Source of the DNA: Boothiomyces macroporosus
Taxonomy: Eukaryota > Chytridiomycota > Chytridiomycetes > Rhizophydiales > Terramycetaceae
Direction of reading: 5' to 3'
DNA: 22,719 bases
Assembly (NCBI GenBank): GCA_027604185.1
Contig: JADGKB010000165.1
Coordinates: 1 to 22,719, forward strand
Below the pieces are notes generated by a model. That model was not told where the DNA came from and searched no databases. It saw nothing but the letters and a program-made list of their open reading frames with translations. Made by a program: the position numbers and the translations under genes. This document shows positions 2,850 to 22,719 of the stretch, piece by piece. How positions within the stretch are numbered: the first letter of the stretch is position 1; each line of letters begins with the position of its first letter.

Positions 2850-5800
2850 CTACAAATATACTGCAAGTAACAGAACGAGGCTTAAACTGAAAGAAGATTT
2901 CAAAGTTGCAGAAGGAACAGTTGAACGAGTAGGAGACACACCTGTCATTGTACCTGTGGCATTATTTCCGTAGGTGATACCAGTAGATGTGACAGATGGA
3001 ACAGTAGTGGTAGCACCAACACTTGCTCGGCTAACCATTCTCAAAATAGGATAAAAAGTTCCTGTCATGAACGCTGGTACACTTCCACAGTATTGATTTC
3101 CATTGCTAGTAACTGAAATGTTCAAAGGTACACCGAGTGCATTGTTGGTCCTAATATTAAATAGAAATCCTACATGTTTACAAAATCTGGAACTGGGTAA
3201 AGAGTACTGTTTTGGCTAATGGACAAATCCAGACTCAAGCAAATTGAAATCGACCCTGTAGGCATTTGAGAGAATGTATATTGTTGCCCATTGCCAACCA
3301 ATTGCCCGACAATATTTCCAAAGGAATCTTTAATTACTGCAACAGATGAACTGGAAGTTGTTCTTTTTACCAGAGTTGGTAAGTTGCTGCTTACAAAGGC
3401 TGAACTACTGACATAATTGACGCTGATTGAAATCGGTTTAGAAGTGTTAAATAATCCATTTGGAATCACGACACCGGAACAAGTAGAGTTGCTGCGCGGA
3501 TCAGCTAGGCACGAATCGATAGGAGAAGATACGGGTGTACTGAAGCAACTGTATTGTCCTGGTGTACAGTCACAAGCAACCGCTTGGTAAATTGCGCCAT
3601 ATGTTCTGAACTTGACATTCAACTGGTTGACATATTTGCGAGAAATTATACGACCAATTGCATTTTGAAAGTATTGCTGAGCCAAAGAATCATCAACTAC
3701 TTGGATGTATTGATTTTGAGGGGCGTATTGAACTGGAATCCATTGAGTGTTCTTCATTTCAGTTGGAGACCATTGGGGCTATAGTTTAGAAATATCCTTA
3801 CGTCTTGCCATTGATAAAAGGTGTAGTATTCACCTCCACATGCTGCACAGCTAGATTGGTTCAAGTAAGCCATATCACCGTTTTGTTCAATGCAATAACC
3901 GCCATAAGCATCACAGGCAGCCTTAGAAGTTGCCCTAGTTGTCCAAGTTGCATTTGCACTAGTACAGTTTGCGATAGAGGTGATATTTCGAGAAATACAG
4001 TTTCCGGTACGAGTATTGAAATCTCCACCAGTGCATAAACCAGGAGTAGCCGGCTTGTAAACGCAAACTCCATTGCTTTGGCCATTTCCGTACTCATAGT
4101 CATTGCAAGTTCCTGATGCGAGACACTGTGCAGAGTTGATGCATTTAGTCATCGGATTCCATGTGCAGCCAAGAGCGTTTGCAAAGGTAGTGGTTGAACA
4201 TCCATATTGGCCTTGACTATTACAGTCCTAAAATCAAAAATTACTTACAGCCCAATTTTGTGTAGCGTTGGTGCACTTTGCCTTAGTTACTGAGGTAAGG
4301 AGACATACAGAAGAATTTCCACTGGATTGCCATTGGCCACCAACCGAATTGCAACTGGTGTAATTAGCGTAGCTTAAATCGGTACAAACCCCATAATCGT
4401 AGCCATTCATGGATTGACATCTAGCACATGGAACATTACAAGTTCCGATATTACTACAGTAGGTCTATACTTAGTAATTAGAATACCTGGTTGGTTGCCC
4501 GGGTCAGATAGTTTACTGGATCGCTGTAAAGTGTACTATCTTCAAAATCAGCACAGGTTGAATTTGGGCACTTTGCTGGAGAGTCGTAGTAGCCATAGCT
4601 AAAGTACACTCCAGGTACATATGTAAGACTACTGGATATACACGAACTTTGCGACATCATATTTGAAGCTGCACAAATAGATCTGTCGCTATCCCAGTAC
4701 ATGTTTGGTAAACTTGAACAGTTTTGAGAAGAGGTAACAGTGGAATTATAGCAAACTGAGCCAATGCATGCCCAAGGGTTTCCCATTTGACTTGCTTGAC
4801 AAGTAGGTCCGGTTAAACACAACGCAGATGAATTTCTGGAAGGATACAAACAGGTGTTATCAAATGTAAGTGTTCCATTAAGGGCTGCACAGCCACTCTG
4901 TTGAACGTCTTGGTAGTTAATTTGGCATTGAGCAAAACGAGAGATTGGTTGCGCAAAGTTTCCATCGGTTTGCCCACAGAAACCAGTGAGGTTGTCTGCA
5001 AGGCATTGCTGAAGTGTTTGGCGGGTCCAAGGTTCTAATGTACATTGCTTATCAGTTAAACAGCCAGCTTGATCTGCAGGAGCTATTACATACAGTGGGT
5101 TTCCGTTTTCGTCGGTTCCTTCCTGTTGATACGAACGGCGATAATTCCAGCTAGAAGGACCAACACAGTCGTACACGAGCCCCAAGCTTCCAATGTAATT
5201 GTAGAAATTAATGCCATCAACAGCGAAAATTCCAGTTTTTGCCAGTCCAGCAACGTGCAACAGCTCAGTTTTCATTTCATCCGCCTTTGTTAATAAATAA
5301 ATACCATCTTGTCAAAGAGACATTGGTACATCAAGGATCTATCACTAGCATCACAGAAAGAGTCAGCCCCACAATTCAAAGAGTAAGCACAGTCGGAATT
5401 TACCTTACATTGGGTTTCATAAACGGCTTTTTGACACTCATTCAAGGTCCCAGAGTAGGTGTTCCATAAGGAATCAACATTTATGTTTGATAATAGAGCA
5501 ATTCTGGCTTGAGCTTGAGCAAAATCGCTCATTAGTGCGCTTATTTTCCCAGGACTATGGCAAACACTAGTGATTGCAGTGGCATTGATTCCAGTCAAGA
5601 CTGGGGCGTAAGCAGTAATACTCTTTGGCGCACAGCATTGGGTTAGAGCAACACTAAATTAATAATATTTACACTGGGTTACAACATGGATCGGTGCTCC
5701 ATCTTGGATCGCTGGGTGGATAAACGCAGTCGGTAGTTCCGGTGATTGTAAAGTTTACAGTGCCAATTGTTGCAAAGGAATACACTAGATTCTGGCAACC

Positions 5801-6606
5801 ATAAAACGCTTCTCGTGTATTCAACACAGATACCTATTTAAGGTTTAAAGTACCATATTATTGATGCTGTCAAGCTGGTCCAAAGTAGAAATATCTTTTC
5901 CGTAATCACTTATTGCTTGAGCCAAAGCAACGAGGGCATTTACCTCGGCCAAAACACACCTTGGCTTTTGCCAAGTTACATTCAAAGGAGTGGTCCAAGG
6001 AGTCCCGTTGGCACTAGTGATCATGTACTGTCCTGTAGTCAAACCCGTGATAACACAGCTAGAGCCCAAAACACTTTGAGCATTTCCTCCGTTAACAACG
6101 ACTGCAACACCAAGACGCGATGGGAAAAAGGTTTCATTTACCTTGACTCCACCAACTACCGCGTTAACAATTGTGCTTCCAGGATCACCTGTTGGCGGAG
6201 CAACCATCAAGTTGGGTGGAGGACCGTTCATTTGGCCAGGTGGAAAGAAATTTGAAATGTTTACGGGACTCCCGTTTCCTGAGCAGGTCATAGCAATGGA
6301 ACCTACATTAAAGTTTCAACTACCTTGAGCGAGCATGGTTAACATTGGAAAATTAGTAGTAGTATTGACAGTGAGGCCAAAGCTTGTAAGTGGCACAGAG
6401 ACGTTAGCAGAAGTTGAAGTAAGATAGAGCGGTTGGTCGAAATCAATTTTAAAGACAGCAACTGATGCTTTTTGGTCGTTGCCCACATCGATTGGAAAAT
6501 CAGTCCAATAGCTTGAAACTGGTATTGGAGCTGAAGCTGACACAGAATTCAGGATAGTATATAATGCAGAGACAGTAGAGACGCGCATCAATGTAAAGTT
6601 TTTCAT
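2850..6606 (-). CDS. Cys-rich secreted / GPI-anchor-type surface protein (1195 aa, nine exons)
   Basis: Exons on the minus strand: 6606-6324, 6302-5854, 5833-5673, 5653-5305, 5284-4487, 4464-4249, 4227-3802, 3778-3174 and 3150-2850. Together they give 3588 nt, a whole number of codons. The eight introns are 23, 23, 21, 22, 20, 19, 20 and 21 nt (low to high coordinate), all GT-AG. The start ATG (6606) opens a signal-peptide-like N-terminus ending in SVSASA. The body is rich in Cys, Ser, Thr, Asn and Gln with many NxS/T sequons. Its middle (about residues 350-800) repeats short Cys-x(n)-Cys modules, reminiscent of PSI/EGF-like or other disulphide-knotted repeats, but I recognise no named domain. 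The C-terminus has a Ser/Thr-rich spacer and then a short hydrophobic tail (FSLSLVLLLAVYL) with no cytoplasmic residues, as in GPI-attachment signals. A cell-surface or wall role is inference. Confidence 0.85.
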
Positions 6607-7527
6607 AGATATGACGCGCTATTTATACTATTTACAAACAGTGGCGTGTTATAACAAGAATGAAACATCTTCAAGTTATGAATCGTTTCAAGCCTTCGTC
6701 AAGGTCACCAATAAAATACGACTTGAATATCACTTTATGGCTTTATTCGGGTGTATATCCCAGAACAGGTTAAAATGTAATATCGCGAATTTAAAAATCC
6801 AGGTGTGACACTTTTGATACAACGAAATAAAAAACAACTATTTGTTCAACACTGAATTTTGCACTATCAGATTCATAATACCTGAGCAATTTTGCTCCAT
6901 ATTACAGTAAAATTAATTGTTTACTCACTTGGAGTGGAATACAAAATTTCATAAATTTGTAATAGCACCGATTCAGCATCAACTATCAAAATACCGGTTT
7001 ATATCTCCGTATATGATTGGTAAATACATCAAAGGTATCGTGATACCCAATGAAATTTAGGATTTGTCATCTAAACGCATACTTGGGTCATGTTATCAAT
7101 TGTTTGTTTACGCGTTCCAGCACATTATGCATCTAACATAATTAATTTCCTCAATAAATAGTGGCTTTGTGTTTTTTGGGTCAAAGATTTATTCAAATTG
7201 ATAATTTATCATTTTCCGATATGGATATGGCAAAAGGTGTAATGAAGGATGATGCCGTTGATGATAAACTTGCTGCAATTATCACCGTCAATATAACTGT
7301 TGAGCTATATGGAGTGAATTTCAACAACATCTTTGGTAGATCAACACCTAATTATTTGAACTAAAGTTACCGTTTGAAAATTGATCTTTAACTGATTCTC
7401 GTTGCCTGGACAGGGTTAATTTCCTGCATTTGTAAGAAAACTCGCAATTGGACATTTGCTTGGAAATACATAATTACTATCAATCAGAAAGGATTAAATT
7501 GACGCGAAATCAGGAATTATTATTGGT
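6607..7527. other. gene-poor intergenic stretch
   Basis: About 920 nt upstream of the Cys-rich protein gene. It holds only short frames: a 65-codon plus-strand frame from an ATG at 6611, which would start 4 nt from the opposite gene's ATG, and a 67-codon frame beginning with GTG at 7161. Neither shows a domain. It presumably contains the promoter of the Cys-rich gene; no further structure was seen. Confidence 0.5.
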
Positions 7528-7875
7528 TTATTCTGGTTTATTTTCTGGGGCTTTGTTTCCAGTCCAAATGGCCGAGTCTGTACGCGTCAACTGCTGGGCA
7601 ACTGTTGGGAGAGACTTCAAGTAGTTTAACCGATAGGTGGTGATCTTGCTGTATTCCGCTTGCGACATGTTGAACACCCTGTACACAGTCTCCACAAAGT
7701 TGTCCGTGTTGAAAAAGGTAACCATCGGCTCAAACATCTTGTCCAGCTCGTGGTCTTTGCTGTGCTCTGAGATTATCAGTAACCTGTGCGACAGGAACTG
7801 GTAGATGCGGTGGGTTTCGAGGATCCAACCTGAAGGATAAAAGTGGATGTTTAGTCCAATCTTTGACTTTGTCAT
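7528..7875 (-). pseudogene. glycosyltransferase-like C-terminal fragment (115 aa)
   Basis: The frame has an ATG at 7875 and a stop at 7528-7530. It begins SKIGLNIHFYPSGWILETHR and continues with a hydrophobic/SEHSKD segment. This pattern (KIGLNIHYY...ILETxRIxxLLSxx...VVSExSxDxEL) is known from the C-terminal half of a group of bacterial-type glycosyltransferases, where it precedes the end of the Rossmann domain. The frame stays open for 21 codons upstream of the ATG (INPPRDQ precedes it) and then hits a TGA. No N-terminal donor- or acceptor-binding half is found upstream; the next 300 nt carry no matching frame. It is probably a truncated copy, or the last exon of a gene whose upstream exons I cannot see. 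Activity is unlikely as it stands. Confidence 0.4.
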
Positions 7876-8202
7876 TTGATCACGTGGTGGATTGATGAAT
7901 TTATACTGTTGTATTTGGAATGGTCATTTCTATTGACACAAAGAAACTAAAATTTCCACTTTATTCACCATAGTATTTGACTAATAGATCTACAAAGCAC
8001 CTTGAACCTACTGTGACTATCTACCCTTTTACTGTTTCTATTTCCACAGCAACAACACTTGGAATAACGACATGCACAATTGCAGTAGTCATGTTCCTGA
8101 TACACCTATACAAGTTGCAACTGATATCCCAGAACACTATAAGGAACATTATTACCCTAACCGATTTTTGATACAATAAAGCACCATGTCTGTAAATGTT
8201 TG
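7876..8202. other. intergenic stretch between the glycosyltransferase fragment and the 7-TM gene
   Basis: This stretch holds a 64-codon plus-strand frame starting with TTG at 7977 that contains one hydrophobic segment and is followed by AATAAA near 8175. It has no ATG and no recognisable family. Nothing else is supported. Confidence 0.4.
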
Positions 8203-9057
8203 CTAATTCTGTTCTTCCATATTCAATGGTATGAAATATTGATTATCATCAAATAGCGCCTTTAGTATATGGGATTGCTCCAATAAACCGCCTATAGCCC
8301 ACGAAATCATGATCCAATCCATAAACGCAACATTATCACCAGTATAATTCTCGGCTTCCAAAACTGCTACAACAATTGAAAAAAATGTAAGTACAATTTC
8401 CATAAACAACGAATAGCCAATTTGGTAAAACACGCAAAGCTTTGATGGTGATTTCTCAACAGAGGAATTGTACTGTTGCAACAATTTATAGGAAGCAGCG
8501 ATATCAAACGACATTCGTACTACGAATATCGGAACTAGAGTTATTACTTGCAGGGTTGATGCTTGAGGGAAAAACGCTGTTCCAGAATTCTCAATCATTA
8601 CAAGTACAGTTCTTGCCATTCTGATTGTAAATACAATGACCATCATTGTAACTGTAAACGTTTTGTACAGGTTTGAATGGCGTGTGGTATAGTTGATTGC
8701 TAAATACCTGCTGTCAATATCGTGTACCTTTGCATAGAAATGTGCAGTAGCCATGTCACACAAGCACTGTAAAATATTGTAGAGATATATAGTGCCCATG
8801 CGATTCCCGGCAAGTCTCGTTGCTCTAGTAAACTCCATTGATCGATCAATTGAATAGTTATATAAATAGACCACAGTAACAACACCAGCCCCAGTTTTCT
8901 TTTTGATGGATCTGAATATACAAGTGACAATTGTTTGATAATCATGCATAGCGAGAATCCAGCTGCAAAGAGTGCAAAATAGCCCCGCGTCAGCATAAAA
9001 CAGCAATGACGTTGGCACTGTAAAAGAAAAAAGTTTTACTATATTTAGATCAATCAT
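8203..9057 (-). CDS. seven-transmembrane, receptor-like protein (270 aa, three exons)
   Basis: Exons on the minus strand: 9057-9040, 9017-8728 and 8707-8203 (813 nt). The introns at 9018-9039 (22 nt) and 8708-8727 (20 nt) are GT-AG. The spliced protein has seven hydrophobic segments: about residues 18-38, 50-67, 76-100, 120-140, 153-176, 190-215 and 225-245. The third ends in a QRY triplet followed by LAI, the position of the DRY motif of rhodopsin-type GPCRs. The tail is short and hydrophilic. Receptor function is inference. The two introns total 42 nt, so an unspliced frame from the same ATG is also open (284 aa), but it reads the middle exon in another frame and loses the first three membrane segments. 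The spliced model is preferred because it yields a regular 7-TM pattern and uses introns like those of the neighbours. Exon 1 is only 18 nt; the alternative start is the ATG at 8996. Confidence 0.6.
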   Translation of the reverse strand: MIDLNIVKLFSFTVPTSLLFYADAGLFCTLCSWILAMHDYQTIVTCIFRSIKKKTGAGVVTVVYLYNYSIDRSMEFTRATRLAGNRMGTIYLYNILQCLCDMATAHFYAKVHDIDSRYLAINYTTRHSNLYKTFTVTMMVIVFTIRMARTVLVMIENSGTAFFPQASTLQVITLVPIFVVRMSFDIAASYKLLQQYNSSVEKSPSKLCVFYQIGYSLFMEIVLTFFSIVVAVLEAENYTGDNVAFMDWIMISWAIGGLLEQSHILKALFDDNQYFIPLNMEEQN

Positions 9058-9353
9058 ATTTCAATTACTTTTGGGTTGGCATTTTAATTTTCTTGTTTAT
9101 TTGAATGTTGTCTGCTGTATAAGGTAAATTCTCATGCACTACGTCAAATTTGGTAATTAGATAGTGCCAACTTTGTTTACCTTCACATATATTTGGTGAT
9201 TATTAATTCAAATTGGGTTGATCTTGGTGTATATCTTCAAATCAAAGAAATACTCAATTTCAAAAAGAAGTCAATCTCTCAAAGACTTTATGACAAATAT
9301 TCCATGCCAAAGGTAAATAGCAAAAATTCAAAACGACTGCAACCATAGACTAA

Positions 9354-9677
9354 TCAAGAGCAATTTATTGATTTTCTAAATTTTGAAACTTCATCCTCAC
9401 TTTTCTCTTTAATTTCCCCAATGAATCCGTGTAACCTTGCTAGCACCAAAACAGCAGTAAATATCTTTGGGAAAACCTCCTTTTTTGCTTGCGTATAGTT
9501 GACACCTGATAAAAGCTCTACGATCCACCCCATCAATTCAGGTTGCTGCAATGACCCGATTATTCTTTTTCTTTGATAGCCCACTGGCAATGTTGGGTTG
9601 ACTGACATTTGCTTCAAATGGTCAGCCAAGTCAATTCCCAAGATGAAATCAACCAATGCTTCAATCTTGGACTCCAT
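9354..9677 (-). CDS. small hypothetical protein (107 aa)
   Basis: The frame has an ATG at 9677 and a TGA at 9354-9356, with no intron needed. It is a mostly helical-looking, soluble protein with a charged C-terminal third rich in Lys and Glu. There is no signal peptide and no membrane segment; a short hydrophobic patch (FTAVLVLARLHGF, about residues 73-85) is probably amphipathic. No family is recognised. It lies divergent to the AMPK beta gene, whose ATG is 451 nt away, so the two may share a bidirectional promoter region. The frame is well isolated, and its length is above what chance readily gives in AT-rich DNA. Confidence 0.5.
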   Translation of the reverse strand: MESKIEALVDFILGIDLADHLKQMSVNPTLPVGYQRKRIIGSLQQPELMGWIVELLSGVNYTQAKKEVFPKIFTAVLVLARLHGFIGEIKEKSEDEVSKFRKSINCS

Positions 9678-10128
9678 TTTAATGAAATTTTTTCAAGAAG
9701 GTGATAATAGAAATCTTCCGATGATTACGTTTCGACAAACAATAATTTGTTGATGACGAGTCATTCTCGAGAGTGAATTTTTCAAATTGGCGATTGATTT
9801 AAAGTGCTATCAAAGTAATTACAAAAAAGATTTCTTTGTTTCTCAGGATTTCACTTTGGGAGCGTTTCCATTGTGAACGCGATAAATTAATCTACCGCTT
9901 CTCCCAACAGAATAAACATTTGAAAGCTATATCATGCTCACCGTTTTTAAACTATTCTAAATCTCGAAACTATTCGCTTGATCAGAATGGTGTAGTTTAG
10001 GGCGGCTAATGGAACACTAACACCACCGCCAAGCTTCCTGTAACAATATAACAATTACTATGGCTACTTTTGGATTATTGTAAACCAAGAATCCACTGCA
10101 CAAAATCTTTTTGAAAAAACGCCATAAA
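9678..10128. other. intergenic region between divergent genes
   Basis: About 450 nt between the ATGs of the 107-aa orphan and AMPK beta, presumably holding both promoters. An imperfect palindrome TCATTCTCGAGAGTGA lies near 9761-9776. No gene or RNA is seen. Confidence 0.4.
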
Positions 10129-11080
10129 ATGGGAAATGCAGAATCCCAACTTACACCACCTTCATCCACAAGATCAATCCCAGTACCAATACCAAGTAGA
10201 GAAAACAAGACTATAATTTCAGAATCGCCTGTAGCTGGTTCCCCTCTTCAAATAGCGGGGTCTATAGACTCATATACTGAAAAGAAGGTTGATATTCCCC
10301 CATCTCCCCCTAGGATAACTAGGAAAGACAACTTTATTCAACCAGCGGGTGAAAAGCCGTACAAGAACAGCTCGAAAATTATTCATCAGTTTGGTTCACT
10401 TGGACTTGCTCCTCTACAGCCAATAGGAACAGTTAAAAAGAATATACCTGTGATGATCGTATGGTCCCATGCTGGTACTTTATGCTAATATCAGGTCAAG
10501 TGGTTCATTTGACAGGTTCATTCAATAACTGGAAAAGGAAAATCAGACTAACCAAATCAACAGAAGATTTCACTACTATAGTGGATATGCCACCTGGAAA
10601 ACATTCGCTCAAGTTCATTGTTGATGATGAATGGAAATGCTCTGAAGATTTGCCAGTTGAAGAGGACCAAGATGGAAATCTAGTCAACTATATTAGCGTA
10701 AATGACGAAGAAGGACGATCTGTTGAAGATGGATTGCAAGATATCTCTGATGACTTTGGAATGGAAAAAGGTAATCATAAATAACGCAGAAATTCCTGAT
10801 AGCCCAGTTGAATCCTACCTGTGCAATTTGCCATTAATGAGGAATGATAAGCAACCGCCTTCTTTGCCAGCCCAATTGCAAAAAGTATTGCTGAATTCAA
10901 AATCAATTACTCAAGATGATCCGTATATTTTACCTGTACCTAACCATGTATCTTTAAATCATTTATACGCGTGTTCTATCAGAGATGGAGTAATGGCAAT
11001 ATCTAGTACTAGCAGGTACAGAAAAAAGGTAACTGTATACTAACAAGTTTATCACTACCGTCTTGTACAAGCCAGTGTAA
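10129..11080 (+). CDS. PRKAB: SNF1/AMP-activated protein kinase beta subunit (297 aa, four exons)
   Basis: Exons: 10129-10474, 10495-10770, 10790-11028 and 11048-11080 (894 nt). The introns are 20, 19 and 19 nt. The beta subunit scaffolds the heterotrimeric kinase and binds glycogen through a CBM48. Start: the ATG at 10129 gives MGNAESQ, an N-myristoylation-type terminus as in animal beta subunits; an in-frame ATG at 10111 would bury it. Residues about 105-190 form the CBM48, with the conserved LTGSFNNW, the Lys of LKFIVDDEW and its Trp, the residues that contact glycogen in rat beta1. Residues about 205-297 form the ASC/alpha-gamma-binding domain (PNHVSLNHLY, then RYRKK). The final 33-nt exon supplies the conserved TTVLYKPV end, which confirms the last splice. 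The Pro/Ser-rich residues 10-95 look disordered. Yeast counterparts are SIP1/SIP2/GAL83. Confidence 0.96.
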
Positions 11081-11084
11081 TAAA
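11079..11084 (+). terminator. polyadenylation signal overlapping the AMPK beta stop codon
   Basis: AATAAA uses the last two bases of the TAA stop (11078-11080). A second AATAAA follows near 11113. The mRNA 3' UTR is probably very short. Confidence 0.5.
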
Positions 11085-11205: not shown

Positions 11206-12281
11206 ATGGTACTTTGTCCTACCAGTCAGTGAAACGCGTGGGGCTTATTGCACAAAAAGTTGAACACAAAACTACTTTAATGTACAGGGAGAGACTGCCT
11301 CTCTTTGAAATCGATGAAATCACTCCAGAATACATGAATGATATGCAAGGCACACCTATTGAAAACGACAAGCAAGTTCAGCTTTCAGTTTTCAACCACA
11401 GAGAAAACAAAAGAACTGAAATCAATGTCAGCATCCCTAAAAAGATCAATCTTGATTTCTTTAAACAGCACATGTATTCTGTCGTTGAAGCCAAAGTTGA
11501 CTGTAAGGACAATGTTGCTTGGACTGGGAATGGTAGAGTTGGTGTTTATGGTTCAGTCAATGCTGCGGGTGAAGCTAGCTTTACTGCTGATCAAGTGTAC
11601 TCATTTCTCTCAATTCGGTATTATGGCAATCGAGATGACCTTTCCGAATACGACTCGTTGATTCGTGAAAAGGAATACCAACAGTTGATTGAATCAGTTC
11701 TGGCAAATGGTGTTCCACTCTCAAAAGGAGGGGTACCGCTTACAGTCTTCAAAGCATCGAATATTAATGGGGAGTTTAAAGGGGTTGTTAGCCCAGAATT
11801 ATATGGGCTTCGTAGGATTCCTAAAGGAGAAACGTTTGAAGTGTCGTACACTCCATTCTTTAATGGCAGTTTATCAATTACTAATGGCGGCTTTGATGGT
11901 GCTGTATCCATCAACTTGAAAGAGTTGGAATTTAAAAGTATTGGTGATGTCATTGTTAAAAGACTTCCAAAAGAATTAAATGTTTGGTTTCGTGCTGACC
12001 AGGTCTCTTACAATGGTAAATTCAATTATACTCATATCACTCTTTCAGGGAATACTGTTGGCCAGTCTCATTTTGCAGGAATGGGAGGATTGTTGAACCT
12101 TAGACGCGATAACAGTTGGATCCATTTTGACAGACACCGAAACCAATTCTTTAGATCTGATCGTTTGATTGCAATCATTCCACTATTGCTCCTTTTCTCA
12201 TTTTTTGTGTTCTTCATGGTCAAAAACAAAAAGAAATATCTTAAATATTTCAAGTATCGTTCAGTTGAAAATAAAAACTAA
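11206..12281 (+). CDS. hypothetical single-pass membrane protein, tandem paralogue 1
   Basis: The open frame ends at TAA 12279-12281; it is open upstream from 11142 but has no in-frame ATG before 11280. Two starts are possible: the ATG at 11280 (no intron), or the ATG at 11206 with a 17-nt GT-AG excision (11209-11225) that yields MSVKRVGL and matches the N-terminal length of the paralogue better. The body is about 310 residues of beta-type sequence with repeated elements (AWTGNGRVG, FKASNINGEFKG, GGFDGAVSINLK, SGNTVG). There is one hydrophobic segment near the C-terminus (IAIIPLLLLFSFFVFFMV, about 12163-12222), followed by a short Lys-rich tail. By the positive-inside rule the tail is cytosolic and the body luminal or extracellular, yet there is no clear signal peptide; tail-anchoring with the body in the cytosol is the alternative. 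Function unknown. It lies 126-200 nt downstream of AMPK beta and head-to-tail with paralogue 2. Confidence 0.75.
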
Positions 12282-12513: not shown

Positions 12514-13623
12514 ATGAGTCACGTCACACAAACTAGCCAAGCCATTAGTACAAAGGTATTTCAATGGCAGAAAATGTTTTCTCTCAAAATGTTCCAATTA
12601 CGCTCCACACTTTTTGGCCTGAATAGAGACGCTGAAAACTTTATGGATGAACTGCCTGGTACTCCAATCCCAAACGATAAAGTCGTAACACTTGCAAGCA
12701 CACCAGAATATCCGGGATCCAAGAATACTTCTTTCCAAGTAGCCATTCCTCATCAAGTTGACCTTGATTTCTTTAAAAATCAACTGTATGGTGTAGTCGA
12801 AGCAAAGTTCTCCAGTAAAGATAATATTGCGTGGACTGGAAACGGAAAAGTTGGTATTTCGGATTATCCCATTGCCGCTGGATCGTTAAAGTTCACTGCT
12901 GAACAAGTCTACACTGGCATTTGGTTTTCTTTCTATGGAACTAGAGAATCAGCCCCAAATTTTGATGAATACATCGAGAACAAAGACTATGACTCTTTGA
13001 TTAAAGCAATAATGAATTTCAAAAGCCCTGACAATCGATATTTTGGTCCAAATTATGCAGATGTTGAAGTTTATAAGGCATCAAATGTAAATGGTGAATT
13101 TAACGGAATTGTTAGTTCACAGGATCATAGGATGCGCTATGGTCGTTATCAAAATGGCCAGAACTACTACTTTAACTACTCGCCATTCTTGAATGGAAGC
13201 TTTTCTGTAACTGATGGTGGTTTTGATGGCTCGCTTAGATTAAATCTTAAAGACATTCAATTCCACAACATTAGCGAGGTCACTGCAAGCAAGATGGATG
13301 GCTATTCATTTGAAAATTATATATCATTTGATTATAGCGTATTATTCAAGGCAGAAGAAGCAACATACGATGGTACTTTTAACGCTTCACAGCTCTCTTT
13401 CACTGGAAACACTGTTGGGAAAGCTGCCTTTGCAGGAATGGGCGGTTTACTAAATGTATCCATCGAATCATATCATGGCTACTATGATCACAACACCGGG
13501 TTCCCGTACGAATACCTCCTGATCATCCCTCTAGTTCTTTTTGTGGCATTCATTTCTTTCTACGTGTTCAAAAACAGAAAAAAGTATTTCAAATATCAAG
13601 CTGTACCATCAGATGAAGAATAA
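12514..13623 (+). CDS. hypothetical single-pass membrane protein, tandem paralogue 2 (369 aa)
   Basis: The frame runs from the first ATG (12514) to TAA (13621-13623) without introns. It aligns along its length with the preceding gene: LPGTPIPND, LDFFKNQLYGVVEAK, NIAWTGNGKVG, FTAEQVY, YKASNVNGEFNGIVS, GGFDGSLRLNLKDIQF and TGNTVGKAAFAGMGGLLN. The membrane segment is at about 13512-13569 and is followed by KNRKKYFKYQ and an acidic end. The two copies differ by indels, including about six extra residues at the N-terminus and an insertion near 13300-13350. The divergence is substantial, so the duplication is not recent. Both copies lack the internal micro-introns that most neighbours have. No known family is recognised; the beta-rich repeat pattern suggests a solenoid or beta-helix, which is inference. 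Confidence 0.85.
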   Translation: MSHVTQTSQAISTKVFQWQKMFSLKMFQLRSTLFGLNRDAENFMDELPGTPIPNDKVVTLASTPEYPGSKNTSFQVAIPHQVDLDFFKNQLYGVVEAKFSSKDNIAWTGNGKVGISDYPIAAGSLKFTAEQVYTGIWFSFYGTRESAPNFDEYIENKDYDSLIKAIMNFKSPDNRYFGPNYADVEVYKASNVNGEFNGIVSSQDHRMRYGRYQNGQNYYFNYSPFLNGSFSVTDGGFDGSLRLNLKDIQFHNISEVTASKMDGYSFENYISFDYSVLFKAEEATYDGTFNASQLSFTGNTVGKAAFAGMGGLLNVSIESYHGYYDHNTGFPYEYLLIIPLVLFVAFISFYVFKNRKKYFKYQAVPSDEE

Positions 13624-13624
13624 A
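13619..13624 (+). terminator. polyadenylation signal overlapping the stop codon of paralogue 2
   Basis: AATAAA spans the TAA stop. The stop codon of the opposite-strand CNB gene is only 7 nt further on, so the 3' UTR must be tiny or must overlap that gene. Confidence 0.5.
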
Positions 13625-13630
13625 AAAAAG

Positions 13631-16600
13631 TTAAATGTTATTGGGATTAAAATTATGCAGTACTTTGGTTTTCGTTGCTTTCCATTCTTCCTGCGACAAT
13701 ATTTTTTGCTGTAGTTCACGCATATCATACATTTGCACACAAGGCTCTCTCATTAATTTCAGTAAAAAGTCATTGCTGATCACTGGTATAAGGTCTGTGA
13801 ATTTGATTGCGGCAATAGTCACAATGCCAGCAGCAACTAATCCCATCTTTTGAAATGTATTCGGATCGCTTGGGTAAAGTTTCTGGAAAAACTCTACATA
13901 CAGATTCTTTTGAATGTCTTTTGGTGTCAGTATGCCTTGATGTATTTCAGGAACGTTGGGAAAGAATTCGCCTGTGCAAAGGTCTTGAGTTTCAACAACG
14001 ATTTGCACGTATTTCTCGTTTCGCATTTGATCAAATTGGGATATTTCTAGTACTCCTTGCGTTTTTAGAAACGGCAGCTTTCTAGTTACTTTGCATACAC
14101 CATCGAGGATCCAAAGTAGTTCGTTAAACTGGCTTCCTTCTTCTACTATTGTTTGACCTTTAGTGTATGAATAAATGTGAAAGAAATTACGCGCAATTAG
14201 TGTTTTCAAGAATGGCTGATGGTCCTGGAAGGTGTACATACCCAGTGTGTCCGTAATCTGAGATTTCGCCTCTTGGTCTTCTTTCTTTGTTATAAAATCA
14301 ACATAATCGTCTACATTAAAACCTAGTTACATTTGGATACATATAATAGTTTGCTATCTGCAGTAGTCGCAGCAGTAAACATCCTAATTCCGCCATTTAT
14401 GCCCAAACATTGCTCTCCAAATATAGAGCCAGAGTTCAAGACATCAATCCGAAACTTGTAACCATCGTTAATCCGGACTAATTCTACTTGTCCAGATAAC
14501 ACAAAATAAATACAAGTAGGTGTGTGACCTTCGGATAATAGAATTGTATCCTTGTCATAATGTTCAAGGGTAATGGCTTGGCATAGGAAAAACCGTACTG
14601 CAAGAGGAAATTTGGAGAACCCTGGCATTCTAATTCGCAACAGCATTTCCAATTTCTCAACTGCCTCATTGCTCCTTTTGAATTTAGGTTCTCGAAGCAA
14701 AGACTGTACTTGTTCGACAAAATTTGGATCAGGAACAACAACATTTGATTTCAGCACATACGATAATGAGCCGTTATCTCGTATGGGTATTGAAGATATC
14801 TTGGTATGGTTTCGTTTTGATATTGCTTTATACACATTTCGAACACATTTGACTAATTTGATGCAGTGGTAGATGCGGAGCCAATTTAAAAACGTGGATT
14901 CTTGTAGGGTTGCATCTTTTGTAACTTTGATTGTTATTTCAGGCAGTTTTGGCTTCTTGAACCTTGACAGCAGTTTCGAATGTTTGGTTAGTACGTGATG
15001 GATTTCGTCCTTGATGGAAGCTCTCAAACTCTTTCTCTTATTCTTTGCTTCTGGTGGGGTTTCAATTTTCGAATTGGTTGTGACGGAACTCCTTTGGCCT
15101 AAACTGTCTTTTGACGCAACTTGATCAATATAAACTTACCTTCAAAAGCAAGAGACTCTGAGTTTATGATACCTGAATTCCTTTTAGTTGTAGAATCTCT
15201 TGTATTTGGCACTACATTAATTCAGACTAACCTTCGAGTTTGGTACCAATAGGTCTTGCAAGAGAAAAGGCCGAGTCAATGCTAGTTTCAGTAGAAAGTC
15301 CAAATACTTTTAATTGTTTATGTTCCTGTGGTCGTTCATTTCCAAGTTGATTTTTGGGTTCTGTGGGAGCCAAGGACAATTTAGCGTCTTTTCCCGTTGA
15401 ACTCTCTTTATTTGAGCTTGATCTCGGTCTAGTAGTGACTTTATTGCTCATAAACGTACTTCGCGGTGTTGGCTCTCCACTCTCAATTTCATCCATCTTT
15501 GAATTGGATTGGATTTCTGGAATCTTTTCCGTTGAAAATATAGACAGTTTTCTAGGTTTCAATAAACTTGAGCTGGAATATTCTGCTGTTCCTTTAACCC
15601 TGTTTTCCAAGTTTTTTCTTTTATTTTTATCTGATATACCAGCAGCTGAGCTCGATTCTATTATCGGATTCGTAGAGAGTTGTGACTTTTCATTCAACTT
15701 GTTTTGTATTTTAATCAAATCATCCAGCGTTAAATTGTCTGGAGTCGAAGTTTGTATTTCTGCTTCAACATTGTCTATGGTATGCCTTCTTCTATGTCGG
15801 TACACTAACGGTTTGGGAGGGGTTTGAAAAGATACATCATCATCCTCAGTCAGATCTTGTAAAATAACGCCAAGGTACCCAGCTCCACTATCACTAGTTC
15901 GAGAATCTATTGAACTATCTATACTAGAAGAACTATCCTTTCCAAATTCTCTTGTACTTCTTTTAACCCTTCTTGTTTCGCTAGCTCTAATATTGATGGA
16001 TGATTCGCTGCTGTTTTCTGAATGAGATCTCGTTCTCTCTCTCATATTATTTATACTTGTTCCTCTTCTGCTTTGTATTGAATAAATACTTGATTTACTT
16101 TGAGAATCTGAGCTTTCGGAGGAAGAGGTTCTCCTTAATCCTTTCTTTAGAGTATTAATTTTCTGATTTTCAAAATCATCAGTAGTTTCAGCCGTTTCTT
16201 CAATTGATAAATCACTTATATTGGATCTCAAAGACGGTTTTCTGATTCGTTTTCCTTTCAAAATATCATTTGAGCTTTCTGCTCCAAGCTTTCTTTCTTT
16301 ACCAATATCATACAGGTTTTGGGCTAAAACAGAAAGTGGAAGAGAGTTTTCTGGTTTGATTTCTTGTTTTTCTAGAGACTTCTTTCTGATTCGCGTTATA
16401 TCAAGAGAGGTTTCTGTAACCATTTGATTATCGTCTTGAGAGCTTCTAGAATCACTTTTTGTTAACGAGGGTAATTCTAGAATATTTGGTTGAGAGGTTT
16501 TGGACTGGGCCATTTTCTGCCCACTTTTCTTGGCACTTTTCTCTTCCCTTTCTTTTCTCATTATTTGGTCGCTGGCAAGTGTCAAGTCTAGATTGGTGCT

Positions 16601-16774
16601 ATTCGACTTCCTTGGTTTGGTACTCGTCACGCTTTCTCTTTTGGTTTGCGTTTGTTCCACCTCTTGGGTAACAATGTCTGGTAATTGAACAGAAATGCCA
16701 ACCACATTAAATTTCCCATCTTGTTTGGCCAACGCTTTAATCGGAATTGTGGGAATTTTTTGATCTTGGCCCAT
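13631..16774 (-). CDS. cyclic-nucleotide-binding-domain protein with long Ser-rich N-terminus (1027 aa, four exons)
   Basis: Exons on the minus strand: 16774-15232, 15211-15140, 15119-14331 and 14310-13631 (3084 nt). The introns at 15212-15231, 15120-15139 and 14311-14330 are each 20 nt. The first ATG (16774) gives MGQDQ. Residues 1 to about 560 are low-complexity, Ser/Lys/Glu/Arg-rich and probably disordered, with many possible phosphorylation sites. Residues about 680-800 form a CNB beta-barrel (LEHYDKDTILLSEG, YFVLSGQVEL, then FGEQ followed 8-10 residues later by FTAAT), matching the phosphate-binding cassette pattern FGE...R-A/T-A; the canonical Arg is displaced, so nucleotide binding is uncertain. 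Residues about 830-880 (KGQTIVEEGSQFNELLWILDG) look like a second, partial CNB. The family resembles the CNBD2-type proteins of flagellated cells. The gene is convergent with the paralogue pair and divergent from GlyRS. Confidence 0.85.
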
Positions 16775-17372
16775 TAGGAGTGAAGAATGACGACTACCAC
16801 ATCGGATGATTTTCCATTGTACACACTTGGTTATTTCCAGAGTACACAATTACTCTTGAGTGTACATCAATTCAATTGTTGTTGGAGCAGAATATTGGAA
16901 AGTAATGCCAGACTCTATCTATCCCAAATCCAATCATTTTTAGCAGTATTTCATATTTTGAATATTGTCTATTGTTGCATAAACCTGGCTAGACAAACTT
17001 GCAAAAGAGATTATCTGAACCAAGGATATTGCAATCTGGGAACACACTACTACATCTAGTTTCACGTACCCTATACTGCGAAAACAACCTATTGATTGCC
17101 ACCTACCATCTAAGCAGATGCTTTATCAACCCACATCCTTTATGGGAGATGTCTATCCTCCTGCAAGGTATCCTTCATCTAAAGAGTAGAGTGCATAATC
17201 TCCACCCAAGAAGATTTGAGATCCAAAGCACCAGCAGACTGGATGTACCAACATTGGTTTGAAATTATTTTTCTTTTAAAAAGCGGATTCAGATTTTCAA
17301 TTTTTTCACACTAAAGTTTACTCAAACTCAATTATAGTTGGCAAACTCAATTAAAGTTAAATTCCCTTTTCC
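16775..17372. other. divergent promoter region between CNB gene and GlyRS
   Basis: About 600 nt. It contains a 90-codon plus-strand frame (ATG at 16787) and an 87-codon frame opening with TTG (16999). Both are Cys- and Tyr-rich without recognisable domains and I judge them chance frames. The GlyRS-proximal end holds a tandem repeat, listed separately. Confidence 0.4.
17323..17359 (+). repeat. tandem 17-mer repeat just upstream of GlyRS
   Basis: CAAACTCAATTATAGTT at 17323-17339 is repeated as CAAACTCAATTAAAGTT at 17342-17358, with one mismatch and a 19-nt period, ending 14 nt before the ATG at 17373. A shorter related piece (ctaaagttta) precedes it. It may be a duplicated transcription-start or regulatory motif. 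Confidence 0.6.
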
Positions 17373-19587
17373 ATGCCTCTAATATCAAATGTAATAACAA
17401 GAGGTGGGCTTCATCTCCACTTTGTGCGACGGATGACTCTACCCAATCATCTTGGAGCTAAATTAAAAAAATTTCTCTCAAATCTGGCAATGCCAACAAC
17501 AGACGAAATTGAAGCCAAAATCATTCAGCAAGCTGACATAGTGAAAAAAGCCAAACAAGCCAAAATGTCCAAGGAAGAATTGGAACCGTTGATTCAGACC
17601 TTGCTCTCGTTGAAGGCACAGCTAAAAGATGAACAGGCAAAAGTAAAGCCGTTCGACAGAGCTGCATTGGAAGCATTGCTTACAAAGAGATTCTTTTACG
17701 CTCCTTCTTTCCAAATTTACGGTGGTATCGCTGGGCTGTATGACTATGGACCTCCTGGATGTGCCGTACAAACAAATATCTTGAATTTGTGGAGACAGCA
17801 CTTTGTCCTTGAAGAAGATATGCTTGAAGTTGAATGCACCAATTTGACTCCTGAAGCTGTATTCCAAGCCTCTGGCCATGTGGAAAAATTCGCTGATTAC
17901 AAAGTCACTGATTCTGTTACTGGTGATATTTACAGAGCTGATCACTTGGTAAAGGAAGTATTAGGAAAGCGTTTGGAAGAAGATAGAAATTTGAAACTAG
18001 GATTGCAAAGCGATGCAAAAAAACCAAAGGGACAAAAGCCTGCTGAACCATTGACTGAAGAAACTAAAGCGCACTATGAAATGGTTCTTGAAACTGTATT
18101 ATATTTCTAATTTAGTTGGATAATTATCAAGGCGAATCATTGGTTAAACTGTTCAAGGATTTGGATATTCGTGCTCCTACTGGAAACCCAGTTACCGAAC
18201 CTGTCTTGTTCAATTTGATGTTTGACACTCAAATTGGTCCTACCGGGCAATTCCAGGGATATTTGCGACCAGAAACTGCTCAAGGTCACTTTTTGAACTT
18301 TAAAAAATTGTTGGAATCCAACAATGAACAAATGCCATTTGCATCTGCGTCTATTGGTAAATCTTTCCGTAATGAAATTTCTCCTAGACAAGGATTGCTT
18401 CGTGTTAGAGAATTTACTATGGCTGAAATTGAACACTATGTCCACCCTGATCGCAAGAACCATGATAGATTCGATGAAGTTGAAAATTTGGAGTTGCCAT
18501 TGTATTCTGCTGCTGCTCAACTTGCTGCTGAAGGGCCAAAAATGACAAAGATTGGAGAAGCTGTCAAAAACCGAACTGTAAACAATGAAACACTTGGATA
18601 CTTTATGGCTAGAATTTACTTGTTTTTGATTAGAATTGGTATTGATGCTGATAGAATTAGATTCCGTCAACATATGGCTAATGAATTAGCTCATTACTCT
18701 TCTGACTGTTGGGATGCTGATATCAAAAGCAGTTACGGATGGATTGAATGTGTTGGATGTGCAGATCGTTCTGCTTATGACTTGTCTGCACACACCAAAA
18801 AGACTGGAGAAAAATTGATTGCCAGAGATACTCTTCCAGAACCAATTGTTACGACAAAGTTGGCTTTAGAAATTCAAAAGTCCAAGTTTGGACCTGTTTT
18901 CAAAAAGGATGCCAAGACTGTTCAAGAAGCTTTATTGTCAATGGAGGAAGCTGAAATTAAAGAATTTGAACTAAAATTAAAGGATGGAAAGGCATCGATT
19001 ACTGCTGCTGATGGAAAGTCATATGAAATCACTAGTGAAATGGTTACCATTGGAATGAAGACTGAAACTATTAATGGTAAAAATATTTTAATGTAGTTTT
19101 GGAATATGTTCCTAATGTTATTGAACCATCGTTTGGTATTGGTCGTATTGTGTACTCTTTGCTTGAACATTCCTACTATGTTCGTGAAGAAGATGAACAA
19201 CGTGGTGTATTAAAATTCAAGCCTGCTATTGCACCAACAAAAGCGCTTGTTATTCCTATTTCAAACAATGCCGACTTTGCTCCACATATTAAATCGCTTG
19301 TTCAAAAGCTGCGGCAAGCAAATGTTTCCAACAAAGTCGACAACTCATCTTCAGCCATTGGACGTCGTTATGCTCGTAACGATGAAATTGGTACACCATT
19401 TGCCATCACAATCGATTTCCAAACTCTTAAAGATGACACTGTAACTCTTCGTGAAAGAGACACTACCAAGCAATTTAGAGCAACCAAAGACCAAGTTGTT
19501 GAAGCAATTAAAGATTTGGTTGATGAAAAAGTCGAATGGGATGCTTTGATTAAAAAGTATGGTGAGTTTGTTGGACAGGATGCCTAA
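17373..19587 (+). CDS. GRS1: glycyl-tRNA synthetase, eukaryotic type, with WHEP domain (724 aa, three exons)
   Basis: Exons: 17373-18095, 18116-19076 and 19097-19587 (2175 nt). The introns at 18096-18115 and 19077-19096 are both 20 nt. It charges tRNA-Gly with glycine as a class II homodimer. Residues about 43-88 form a WHEP helical hairpin (IIQQADIVKKAKQAK ... LSLKAQLKDEQAK). The catalytic core starts near residue 90 (ALLTKRFFYAPSFQIYGGIAGLYDYGP). Motif 2 is SFRNEISPRQGLLRVREFTM; motif 3 is EPSFGIGRI. The C-terminal anticodon-binding domain contains IGRRYARNDEIGTPFAITID. Splicing restores LETLDNYQG and INVLEYVPNVIEPSFG, both as in other GlyRSs. The first ATG gives a basic, Ser-free, amphipathic leader (RGGLHLHFVRRMTLPNHLGAKLKKFL) only if read in two halves; ATG 40 (17490) would give a cytosolic form. 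Dual cytosolic and mitochondrial targeting from one gene is known for GlyRS and fits here. Confidence 0.97.
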
Positions 19588-19943
19588 GCCTTTAATCTTA
19601 ATAAAATACAAGATGCTGTTACTTGGCTTTTTCTGTTAAATGCTTTTGGTAACTCTTTTTATTGTAATAACTCATAGAGTTGAGTTCACCCATAGTAGAT
19701 TACACTCGCATTTTTTAGTCCCTTCTTTGATAATCAGTTTCATGTTCAACTGATGGGCTATCTCAGGCTCTTCCAAAGAGAGAAACAAACTAAATTAGAA
19801 TATGAAATCAATAATCAGAGCCTGAATAATCAATCAGGTATCATCATGTCCCTGAGCTATCCAATCGAGAAAAACTCTAGTTCCCTGAGCAAACATAACA
19901 AGCTCTTTAAAATGGAATCCCAATTTGGTATCCAAACAGTATA
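19588..19943. other. convergent intergenic region between GlyRS and the CIA30-domain gene
   Basis: The GlyRS polyadenylation signal lies at its left end. A 64-codon plus-strand frame (ATG at 19753) runs into the 3' end of the CIA30 gene and shows no domain. No other feature is seen. Confidence 0.4.
19600..19605 (+). terminator. polyadenylation signal AATAAA of GlyRS
   Basis: AATAAA begins 12 nt after the GlyRS stop codon (19585-19587), implying a short 3' UTR. Confidence 0.55.
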
Positions 19944-20638
19944 TTAAAAAAATGAAATTGATTCAAGTTCAAGTTCAAAGTCTCCATCTTGCTGGTCAAA
20001 GAATGACTGCATCATGATAGACAACCCGTGAATTCTTTTTGGATCTAATCTATCACTAGTCTCTTTCCCACGGTAATTGCCTCTAAACTCGTCCCAATAA
20101 AAATACAAGACGCTTTCAGGGTAGAAGCGCACTTTAAAATTAAGCTGACTGGCTTTTCTGCCATCTCCCCTGTCAATGTATTTTTCAGGGAACAGGTTTA
20201 AAGAGTATTCTTTAGAGTCGCATTTGCCCAAGGAGAGTTTGATTCCTCTGTATTTACTGGCATCAATTGGTTCATCAAACGTGTACCTTTGCGATGCAAA
20301 CCTAGTTGAGTTGAATCTTACCCCGCACCGCCAAGTGTCGTCGTATCTACATTGCCATAAAATAGTACAGTCTTATTTCCTGATAGATGCGAGACTGATT
20401 TGCCTCCTCTTATAGAGTCATCTACTTGTTCCCACTTTTTCACGTTCCATTCAGGGAATAAAACCTTTCCCGTTTGTAAAACATACTGCAGTCCAAATGT
20501 AGCGTGGACTGTCACAAGAACTAAACATAACAGCTGTAACATGAGTGAAACAAAGAGCCAAAAAATGCTGTGCTGTGGCGGAAAAAATTGATTTAAAAGG
20601 ACCGTGAAAGCTTTTACAGGAATGAGTAATATTTCCAT
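19944..20638 (-). CDS. CIA30 (NDUFAF1-like) domain protein with N-terminal hydrophobic segment (two exons)
   Basis: Exons on the minus strand: from 20638 or 20542 to 20322, then 20301-19944. The intron at 20302-20321 is 20 nt; splicing joins LGGAG to FASQRYTFDEP, the conserved core of the domain. CIA30 is a galactose-binding-like jelly roll first known from the complex I assembly factor NDUFAF1. Visible motifs are KWEQVDDSIRGGKSVSHL (W..DD...GG.S), LFYGNVDTTTLGGAGF and the Phe/Tyr-rich C-terminal strands. From the ATG at 20638 the protein has 224 aa; from the ATG at 20542 it has 192 aa and starts MLQLLCLVLVTVHATFGLQ, a good signal peptide or membrane anchor. Hence it may act in the secretory pathway rather than as a mitochondrial assembly factor. 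It is divergent from the sterol glucosyltransferase and convergent with GlyRS. The inner start (20542) is favoured because the outer ATG overlaps the opposite gene's start. Confidence 0.85.
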
Positions 20639-22719
20639 GACGGTTTCTTCTCACAATTCATCAGAGGATTTACCAGAATACCAAGCGGAATTGGAAAAGA
20701 TTGACTTGGACGAGAAATCTGATCTTCCACCACCGCTTCCTCCAAGACGAAAGATGCCTCCGTTCAAGATGTACGTTGGGATAATGCCTATTTACAAGCC
20801 AAGCAAACTTGCGGAATCAATCGGATATTTTGATAAAGACCTCTTTGCAGACAACAGAAATTTCCATTTGTACTGTATCATCGAATGGGAAAACTCGTTT
20901 ACAAAATACGAGGGTAATTTACACTAATATAGTTGATTTGAACGATGATAAACGTGGAAAGAATTCTAAAACGCTAATTTCAACTGTTGGCGGATTCGAA
21001 AACAGCTATCATTTTATGGACGACTATATCCAAAAGAATCCGAGGAACAGACTCATGTTTATTGGAGAGACAATGAAATCTCCAAAAGATGCGAGTGGGT
21101 TTTGCATCAAATGGAGTCAAGATCATTCCAATAACACCCCAATGTGGGAAAACTCTCGCTTGTTTGTTGACGAATTCCTCGAAACTATTGCTGACACTAA
21201 TCCTACTTGGAAGACTAAAGTAAAGCTCACCAGTACCAGTGACTCGGTGATACCTGAAAATTCGTATGGATTCTCTTCAGCGTTAGAGTATATCGACTGG
21301 AAATTCAAAAAAACTCAGTTGCTTTTAGAGAATACAAAAGGGTTCAATGCAAGAGTTGAAAACGATCGTTTGATGGTGGAATTTACCAAAACAACTACAT
21401 TAGAGAGTAGCCGTACTTCTCCAACGAGTAGTTTAAGAGATGAAGAAATTCACTCCCATCCAGCTCCATGTCTTAATATAGTGATCCAGATTGTTGGATC
21501 TAGAGGTGACGTGCAACCATTTGTAGCTCTGGGAATTGAATTGCAGAAATATGGCCACAGAGTGCGGTTAGCTACACACGAAACATTCAGGACTTTTGTT
21601 ACTGAAAACGGGCTAGAGTTTTATCCTTTGTTTGGAGATCCGGCATTACTTATGGCTTATATGGTAAAGAACCCTGGGCTAATACCTGGGCTCGATGCTA
21701 TTAAACAAGGGGAAATACAAAAGAAGCGAGATATGATTGCTGGGATTTTAGAAAGTACTTGGAAGTCTTGCACTGAACCGGACGAAGTAACTGGCTTACC
21801 ATTCGAAGCACAAGCAATTATTGCCAATCCACCATCGTTTGGGCATATTCACTGTGCAGAAAAACTAATGATTCCTGTACTTGTTATTAACCATAGTTGC
21901 ATATTTATTTTACTATGCCATGGTCGCCAACAGTAGAGTTCCCTCATCCTCTAGTTAACGTTGACTATTCTGGTGGACACTCTGGTTCTTACAACAAAAT
22001 GTCGTATGATGTGACAGAAACAATGACTTGGAGTGGATTAGGAGATATTATCAATAATTTCAGAAAGAAAACGCTTGGGCTACATGGAATACCTATTACC
22101 CACGCACCCAGATTGTTACATGAACTAAAAGTGCCGCATACTTACTGCTGGTCGCCAAACTTGATTCCCAAACCGAAAGACTGGGGAAGCCATATCGATG
22201 TCTGTGGATTCTTTTTCCTGGATCTGGCTTCCAATTATACTCCGCCAGACGATCTGGTTCAGTTTCTGAATGCAGGTCCGCCGCCAGTGTATATCGGCTT
22301 TGGATCTATTGTGGTCGACGACCCTGATAAACTGACCAAGCTGATATTCAGCGCTGTAGAAAAGGTGAGGACCAGTTAACATAGGCTGGTGTACGAGCGA
22401 TAGTGTCTAAAGGCTGGGGAGGACTAGGGACAGATAGCGTACCTTCAAACATCTACATGATTGGAAACTGTCCCCACGACTGGCTGTTTACCAAAGTATC
22501 TGCTGTGTGCCATCACGGAGGTGCAGGAACTACAGCTGCCGGGCTTTTGAAAGGCAAGCCAACCATCGTTGTTCCATTCTTTGGCGATCAACCGTTCTGG
22601 GGAGCAATGATTGCCAGAATGAGAGTCGGTCCTGAGCCTATCCATAACAAAAAGCTAACTGCAGACAACCTCGCAGAAGCGCTTAAATTTGCGACAAGTG
22701 AAGAAATTACAAAGAATGC
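20622..22719 (+). CDS. sterol 3-beta-glucosyltransferase (ATG26/UGT80/Ugt52 family), 3' end beyond window
   Basis: Exons: 20622-20913, 20933-21876, 21897-22364 and 22385 to beyond 22719. The introns are 19, 20 and 20 nt. It transfers glucose from UDP-glucose to the 3-hydroxyl of membrane sterols (GT1 family, GT-B fold). The acceptor half begins near residue 277 ([21 protein letters not shown]) and includes [16 protein letters not shown] and, after splicing, [14 protein letters not shown] with PHPL. The donor half has VYIGFGSIV, then after the last intron VSKGWGGLG and the UDP-sugar signature [17 protein letters not shown] with [10 protein letters not shown]. The N-terminal 270 residues contain a Pro-rich PPPLPPRR stretch and an unrecognised folded region, but not the PH/GRAM domains typical of fungal ATG26. 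The start is the ATG at 20622 or 20637; a GTG at 20604 is in frame but not credible in a eukaryote. The reading ends inside a codon at the window edge. Confidence 0.95.

Follow-up and report, generated by a model that had tools for sequence, protein, structure and literature searches.

Introns of about 20 nucleotides, probably spliceosomal, in the nuclear genome of a likely fungal-side opisthokont

Introns of about 20 nucleotides (nt) interrupt the protein-coding genes of a 22,719-nt stretch of eukaryotic DNA, bases 1-22719 of contig C165 (this whole stretch is called the window in the following), and recur across a sample of the genome to which it belongs. From the sequence data we are highly confident that these are real U2-type spliceosomal introns, carried in the nucleus of an organism that is probably a fungal-side opisthokont, and that they have converged on this length. 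The genome comprises 15,203,306 bases in 216 contigs, and the sample covers 272,719 bases from 26 loci (the window, 20 and then 5 further stretches; 1.8% of the genome) with a GC content of 38.6%. GT-AG ends, restored reading frames, a preferred geometry, a single length class in the sample and the presence of named spliceosomal parts were observed directly. The assignment to the U2 type draws on the GT-AG ends, a branch site complementary to the GUAGUA of U2, the exact restoration of proteins upon excision and the presence of U1, U2, U6 and Prp8.

Manual reconstruction together with a simple gene finder yielded 20 introns in the window, distributed over six genes of either strand, with lengths of 19 nt (four), 20 nt (11), 21 nt (two), 22 nt (one) and 23 nt (two). 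The original prediction had placed 22 introns in seven genes (four of 19 nt, 12 of 20 nt and two each of 21, 22 and 23 nt); two of these could not be placed, and the length range and the mode of 20 nt hold. As predicted, GT-AG ends were found throughout (20 of 20). A GTA start, previously counted in 20 of 22, was present in 18 of the 20, the exceptions being the introns at 15212-15231 (GTT) and 22365-22384 (GTG). The five introns that had been put forward as examples (18096-18115, 19077-19096, 10475-10494, 11029-11047 and 20914-20932) are exact GT-AG segments of 19-20 nt. The YTRAY-like motif described close to the AG is exact in 16 introns; in 13 of the 20, its A occupies position 14-16, with 5-6 nt from there to the intron end, and three hold the motif elsewhere. 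Units of GTA, YTRAY and AG that are 19-22 nt long and whose motif stops 4-5 nt short of the unit's end number 14 in the window, compared with a mean of 2.86 and a maximum of 9 in 300 dinucleotide shuffles, and are therefore not explained by chance. If nothing is excised and the first exon's frame is followed throughout, each of the six genes runs into 4 to 36 stops.

The expectation that such introns extend beyond the window was supported by model-free counts, by gene finding on coding signal alone and by homology across the junctions. For the counts, the sample was scanned for units of the form GTA...YTRAY...AG and compared with ten dinucleotide shuffles. At 19-22 nt, 352 units were observed versus 81 expected, an excess of approximately 271; the individual lengths of 19, 20, 21 and 22 nt contributed 92, 131, 72 and 57 units (21.5, 18.1, 21.6 and 20.2 expected), with the peak at 20 nt. 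The other lengths within 14-60 nt reached 0.6-1.7 times the expectation, overall slightly more than 1. Binned means between 23 and 400 nt were flat at 23.9-26.4 units per length, compared with an average of 88.0 at 19-22 nt, and the false donor GAT produced no peak (35.5 at 19-22 nt, 35.5-40.0 at other lengths). The length histogram that the original prediction had proposed as a check thus showed an excess at 19-22 nt only. Scaled from the sample, which is assumed to be representative, the genome would contain roughly 13,000-15,000 introns.

A gene finder with free intron length and without length or motif preference called 47 GT-AG introns at 19-23 nt, whereas 24 randomly drawn dinucleotide control pairs (TA donors excluded) gave 6.8 on average and 13 at most; in all other bins from 10 to 300 nt, there was no GT-AG excess over these pairs. 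The first run of this finder, on 222.7 kb and with nine control pairs, had given 46 GT-AG introns versus 4-9 at 17-24 nt. When introns were chosen by coding signal alone and lengths of 15-26 nt were allowed, 81 of 98 fell at 19-22 nt. The lengths of the sampled introns fall into one narrow class, which stays below about 25 nt. A motif-aware gene model of the sample contained 142 predicted genes and 231 introns, with at least one intron in 88 of the genes.

There are two outliers. One is a 23-nt intron in the gene for Slu7, whose junction is gapless against SLU7; the other, beyond the window, is a 24-nt intron called in the SF1 gene, the excision of which removes an in-frame TAA. The exact ends of the latter are less sure, because excision does not raise the helix-hairpin profile score (114.6 raw, 113.8 spliced). 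Longer candidates were rejected: a 223-nt intron linking two tandem window genes came from an early free-length run, and long calls overall did not exceed the control pairs; a 56-nt Slu7 intron of an early model was replaced by the 23-nt intron, which fits the SLU7 alignment; and a small excess at branch-to-end distances of 11-12 (branch A at 14-15) approximately matches the number of AGs estimated for the downstream exon. Modelled introns with a length divisible by three had an in-frame stop in 39 of 39 cases, compared with 64% in the other two phases. We make no claim of selection for such stops, since the gene finder is blind to stopless introns of this kind, and a stopless 21-nt intron in SF1 was found by hand.

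The typical intron is described by two nearly fixed distances, although exceptions exist. In the table of branch-A position (A) by distance from this A to the intron end (q), the six cells with A=14-16 and q=5-6 held 249 units versus 39.6 expected from six control donors. The individual cells contained 62, 52, 56, 40, 15 and 24 units (5.2, 4.6, 7.8, 6.2, 8.0 and 7.8 expected), with a smaller excess in adjoining cells such as (14,3), (14,4), (15,4) and (15,7). This table selects on the motif, and the analysis was therefore repeated with introns picked by coding signal alone: of the 81 at 19-22 nt, 72 began with GTA and 55 contained YTRAY, and 46 of the latter fell into these six cells. At every one of the 26 loci, 3-18 units of this geometry were present, chance units included. 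Among 253 motif-selected units, the exon side of the donor was A-rich with G at -1 in 44%; inside the intron, we found A at +4 in 55%, T at +5 in 42%, G at +5 in 16% and T at +6 in 52%, and the stretch preceding the branch was T-rich (35-49%).

Homology was examined across the junctions, 13 of which were gapless in fully printed alignments: two each in glycyl-tRNA synthetase (GlyRS), the AMPK beta subunit, a sterol glucosyltransferase, Slu7 and RPC1, and three in Prp8. For the other junctions in the window, the support comes from open frames or from matches to profiles. The exact restoration that had been claimed for three window enzymes holds for both GlyRS junctions and for two of three each in AMPK beta and the glucosyltransferase; the other two lie in a variable linker and outside the aligned part, respectively. 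In Prp8, a stretch of 1,141 residues assembled across three introns (21, 21 and 22 nt) matches residues 918-2058 of 6qw6_5A, the same length, with an E value of 0, and the printed alignment of approximately 950 residues runs without a gap across each of these junctions, which follow residues 572, 651 and 771. Excision merged two Slu7 pieces (154.6 and 94.7 bits) into one full-length match (289.6 bits), with the junctions after residues 255 and 353 both gapless against SLU7 5xjc_Z. RPC1, with six introns, was gapless against yeast 5fj8 at junctions 601 and 901; junction 969 is gapless in the match line only, and junction 105 adjoins a two-residue gap. Frameshifts from assembly or sequencing errors or from gene decay might mimic introns, and the initial 2 kb of the window does give the impression of decay when read. 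However, errors would produce neither GT-AG ends, a single length class and a branch motif with a preferred position across 26 loci nor precise excision within GlyRS, Prp8 and Slu7, and we regard the probability of this explanation as negligible.

The spliceosomal parts that were searched for, U1, U2, U6, Prp8, U2AF65, SF1 and Slu7, were all found and look ordinary from their sequences; U2AF, SF1, Prp8 and U6 are the components that the original prediction had suggested checking for alteration or loss. Two differing genes for the U2 small nuclear RNA (snRNA), at loci L023 and L024, both scored over the cut-off with GUAGUA intact, and the U6 snRNA likewise scored over the cut-off with an intact ACAGAGA. 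Compared with the Rfam consensus, the U6 gene (L028 1501-1606, minus strand) has an additional U in GGC-U-CCC. The canonical 5' end of U1 (L040 19-181) reads ACUUACCUG. The score of U2AF65 was 230.7 bits in raw DNA, below the cut-off of 310.3 and only roughly comparable with the spliced value, and rose to 342.7 bits after removal of four introns of 19-20 nt. SF1 has the helix-hairpin, the KH domain and two zinc knuckles; excision of 21 nt completes the second knuckle. Within this partial census, the retained U2AF65, SF1, Slu7 and Prp8 speak against a reduced spliceosome. Removal might in principle occur at another level and without a spliceosome, by DNA elimination as in ciliates or by translational bypassing, both kinds of short in-frame interruption being known from other systems; given the GT-AG ends, a branch motif that matches U2 and the presence of U1, U2, U6, Prp8, U2AF65, SF1 and Slu7 in the genome, we consider this very improbable.

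Several points weigh against reading these segments as one uniform, genome-wide class of ordinary spliceosomal introns. The census of length and geometry covers 1.8% of the genome, and the motif scan would miss long introns with weak signals, although the coding-only finder detected none above control. An exact YTRAY is lacking in 26 of the 81 coding-only introns and in 4 of the 20 window introns. G at +5 occurs in just 16 of the 81 coding-only introns despite a canonical U1; U1 retains AUACUUACCUG, and the loss of +5 G therefore came without a matching change in U1. The U1 score of 68.8 bits is just below the family cut-off of 69.5, with the 5' end intact. Finally, the spliceosome census is partial, covering U1, U2, U6, Prp8, U2AF65, SF1 and Slu7.

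The genome is likely that of a fungal-side opisthokont, as suggested by an insertion in EF-1alpha together with the best matches of EF-1alpha and RPC1. Among solved structures, the species of which we assume from the entry names, EF-1alpha matched S. cerevisiae best (908 versus 861 bits for the best mammalian chain), and it carries a yeast-like insertion that we take to be of the opisthokont type. RPC1 was also closest to S. cerevisiae (1420.7 versus 1396.6). Other proteins scored differently: Prp8 reached 2362.7 bits against human, 2151.4 against S. pombe and 1866 against S. cerevisiae; Slu7 reached 420.8 against human versus 59.7 against yeast; and AMPK beta also scored higher against human than against yeast. 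These three would fit a source outside the fungal side with equally real introns, for example another opisthokont (a nucleariid or holozoan) or a mixed assembly, which we judge unlikely in view of the EF-1alpha and RPC1 matches and the yeast-like EF-1alpha insertion. Budding yeast evolves fast, and low scores against it are therefore weak evidence. A mikrocytid or other rhizarian source was dropped because EF-1alpha carries the opisthokont insertion. A motif search for 18S rRNA gave no match, and there is therefore no placement based on rRNA.

On the evidence of these sequences, it is fairly probable that the nucleus of a fungal lineage independently drove essentially all of its introns, some 13,000-15,000, to a two-part ruler of 14-16 nt from the donor to the branch A and 5-6 nt from the branch A to the end. 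It would have done so with a spliceosome that looks unreduced, in which Prp8 is colinear with the human protein over 1,141 residues and Slu7, SF1 and U2AF65 are kept. From the signals we infer splicing at the RNA level, an order of recognition and a length at the physical minimum, as we do the fungal placement. The typical intron would begin with GTA(A), followed by a YTRAY with its A at 14-16 and then by 5-6 nt to the final G of the AG. Its removal would most likely proceed by intron definition and ordinary splicing, with U1 reading AG|GTA at the donor, U2 reading YTRAY at the branch site and the first AG downstream of the branch, 5-6 nt on, serving as the acceptor. The length would be determined by the closest spacing at which the components bound to the donor and to the branch still fit next to each other: when the branch A lies at 14-16, the U6/U1 pairing at the donor and the U2 pairing at the branch nearly abut, so that intron length may be a contact minimum. 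Since the acceptor AG follows 5-6 nt past the branch, there is no space for a pyrimidine tract in between, and U2AF65 may therefore contact the T-rich stretch preceding the branch or act mainly via SF1. Yeast Slu7 is dispensable at short branch-to-acceptor distances; that Slu7 is kept here despite the short gap suggests another role or a recent shrinkage.

Returning to the genes of the window, the largest intron set is found in a gene for a cysteine-rich protein at 2850..6606 on the minus strand, which has 36 stops when unspliced and becomes a single open frame of 1,195 amino acids after excision of eight introns: 3151..3173 (23 nt, GT-AG ends), 3779..3801 (23 nt), 4228..4248 (21 nt), 4465..4486 (22 nt), 5285..5304 (20 nt), 5654..5672 (19 nt), 5834..5853 (20 nt) and 6303..6323 (21 nt), all on the minus strand. 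All eight junctions rest on the open frame alone, which each excision keeps; the intron at 5285..5304 was also called by the gene finder without motif preference. By eye, the product has a signal-peptide-like start, many cysteines and a hydrophobic tail, and it is perhaps a glycosylphosphatidylinositol-anchored surface protein.

The AMPK beta subunit gene (10129..11080, plus strand, its stop codon ending at 11080) encodes the AMPK1_CBM and AMPKBI domains and was aligned with AMPK beta-2 (4rer). Its three plus-strand introns are located at 10475..10494 (20 nt), with a junction gapless against AMPK beta-2, at 10771..10789 (19 nt), where the frame is kept and the junction falls within the weakly conserved, variable linker, and at 11029..11047 (19 nt), with a gapless junction at the conserved C-terminus. 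A gene for a cyclic-nucleotide-binding protein follows on the minus strand (13631..16774), with a PF00027 match at residues 724-808 and three 20-nt introns on the same strand. The excision of 15120..15139 and of 15212..15231, the intron with the GTT start, keeps the frame and rests on the open frame only; the third junction, from 14311..14330, is at residue 801, close to where the PF00027 match ends.

GlyRS is encoded at 17433..19587 (plus strand), a gene also found by coding signal alone; residues 29-703 match GlyRS 2q5i with an E value of 2.5e-204, and both 20-nt introns (18096..18115 and 19077..19096, plus strand) leave junctions gapless against this structure. A gene for a CIA30-domain protein lies at 19944..20542 on the minus strand, and its spliced residues 33-186 match positions 8-157 of the 157 positions of PF08547. 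Its single intron of 20 nt (20302..20321, minus strand) leaves a junction at residue 73, which falls within the CIA30 match; without excision, the translation terminates just past this point. A further segment of suitable size, 20347-20368, was not needed as an intron, as the CIA30 match continues through it. The sterol 3-beta-glucosyltransferase gene (20637..22719, plus strand; structure 5xvm, E value 9.9e-78) is truncated by the window end. Its plus-strand introns are 20914..20932 (19 nt), which keeps the frame and lies outside the aligned part, 21877..21896 (20 nt) and 22365..22384 (20 nt, GTG start), the latter two with junctions gapless against 5xvm. Going by the entry names, we take 2q5i to be human GlyRS, 4rer human AMPK beta-2 and 5xvm a yeast enzyme.

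Six further open reading frames of the window, 1700-2467, 7528-7923, 8203-9057, 9354-9674, 11280-12281 and 12514-13623, had no Pfam match at an E value of 0.001. The genes at 11280-12281 and 12514-13623 (plus strand) are neighbouring, intronless and similar-looking, each with a C-terminal hydrophobic segment, and by eye they resemble a tandem duplication. The region at approximately 1380-1500 reads like a decayed transposon relic, with a resemblance to what we take to be the 'ADKGYAGN' motif of DDE transposases. Elsewhere in the genome, one contig holds two equally scoring RRM matches (G000:C20 74242 and 119309), which perhaps reflect a recent duplication.

Uniform ultra-short introns are already known from nucleomorphs, heterotrich ciliates and mikrocytids, and the length of about 20 nt seen here comes near the shortest described. 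According to PMC10245619, the introns of the mikrocytids Mikrocytos mackini and Paramikrocytos canceri (Rhizaria) are uniform, 16-17 nt long and conserved in sequence, with 224 predicted introns and 17-19 identified spliceosomal proteins in M. mackini; the same source gives 15-16 nt for Stentor and other heterotrich ciliates and 18-21 nt for the Bigelowiella (chlorarachniophyte) nucleomorph. Mikrocytids thus share the uniform ultra-short introns but belong to a different supergroup and keep few spliceosomal proteins, whereas here 231 introns were modelled in the 272.7 kb sample alone and U2AF65, SF1 and Slu7 are kept. The Bigelowiella nucleomorph has a nearly equal length range; it is, however, the remnant nucleus of an endosymbiont, and its genome is strongly reduced, compared with 15.2 Mb here. 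For Stentor, the table in PMC9505925 lists homologues of U2AF and SF1 as present, with Slu7 and Prp18 not found. Like heterotrichs, the present genome combines tiny introns with U2AF and SF1; it differs in the length of 19-22 nt, the presence of Slu7 and the probable opisthokont affiliation. The intron-poor Trichomonas has, according to PMC12316389, a short class of 23-25 nt with conserved motifs and a second class of 50-196 nt; in our sample, there is no such longer class.

We know of no fungal case of introns of about 20 nt. Consistent with the same statement in the original prediction, none was found among the titles and abstract beginnings listed in a literature search, a partial listing with subscription journals mostly outside it, and an earlier description may exist. 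What seems new is the lineage, together with the retained Slu7 and the ordinary-looking core. The short introns of the earlier cases, which come from a relic nucleus, from giant ciliates and from reduced parasites, could result from a spliceosome that is altered or shrunken. If the pattern described here holds genome-wide, intron shrinkage would be separable from spliceosome reduction: the standard spliceosome itself would work at the length limit, and reduction would not be a precondition. It would also narrowly constrain the spacing of donor, branch and acceptor in a spliceosome that is close to the ones with cryo-electron microscopy structures, and it would raise the question of the role of Slu7 and U2AF65 at a branch-to-end gap of 5-6 nt. 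Such genomes are likely to be misannotated by gene predictors whose minimum intron length is larger. The genome may offer a new natural test of the minimum length of an intron.

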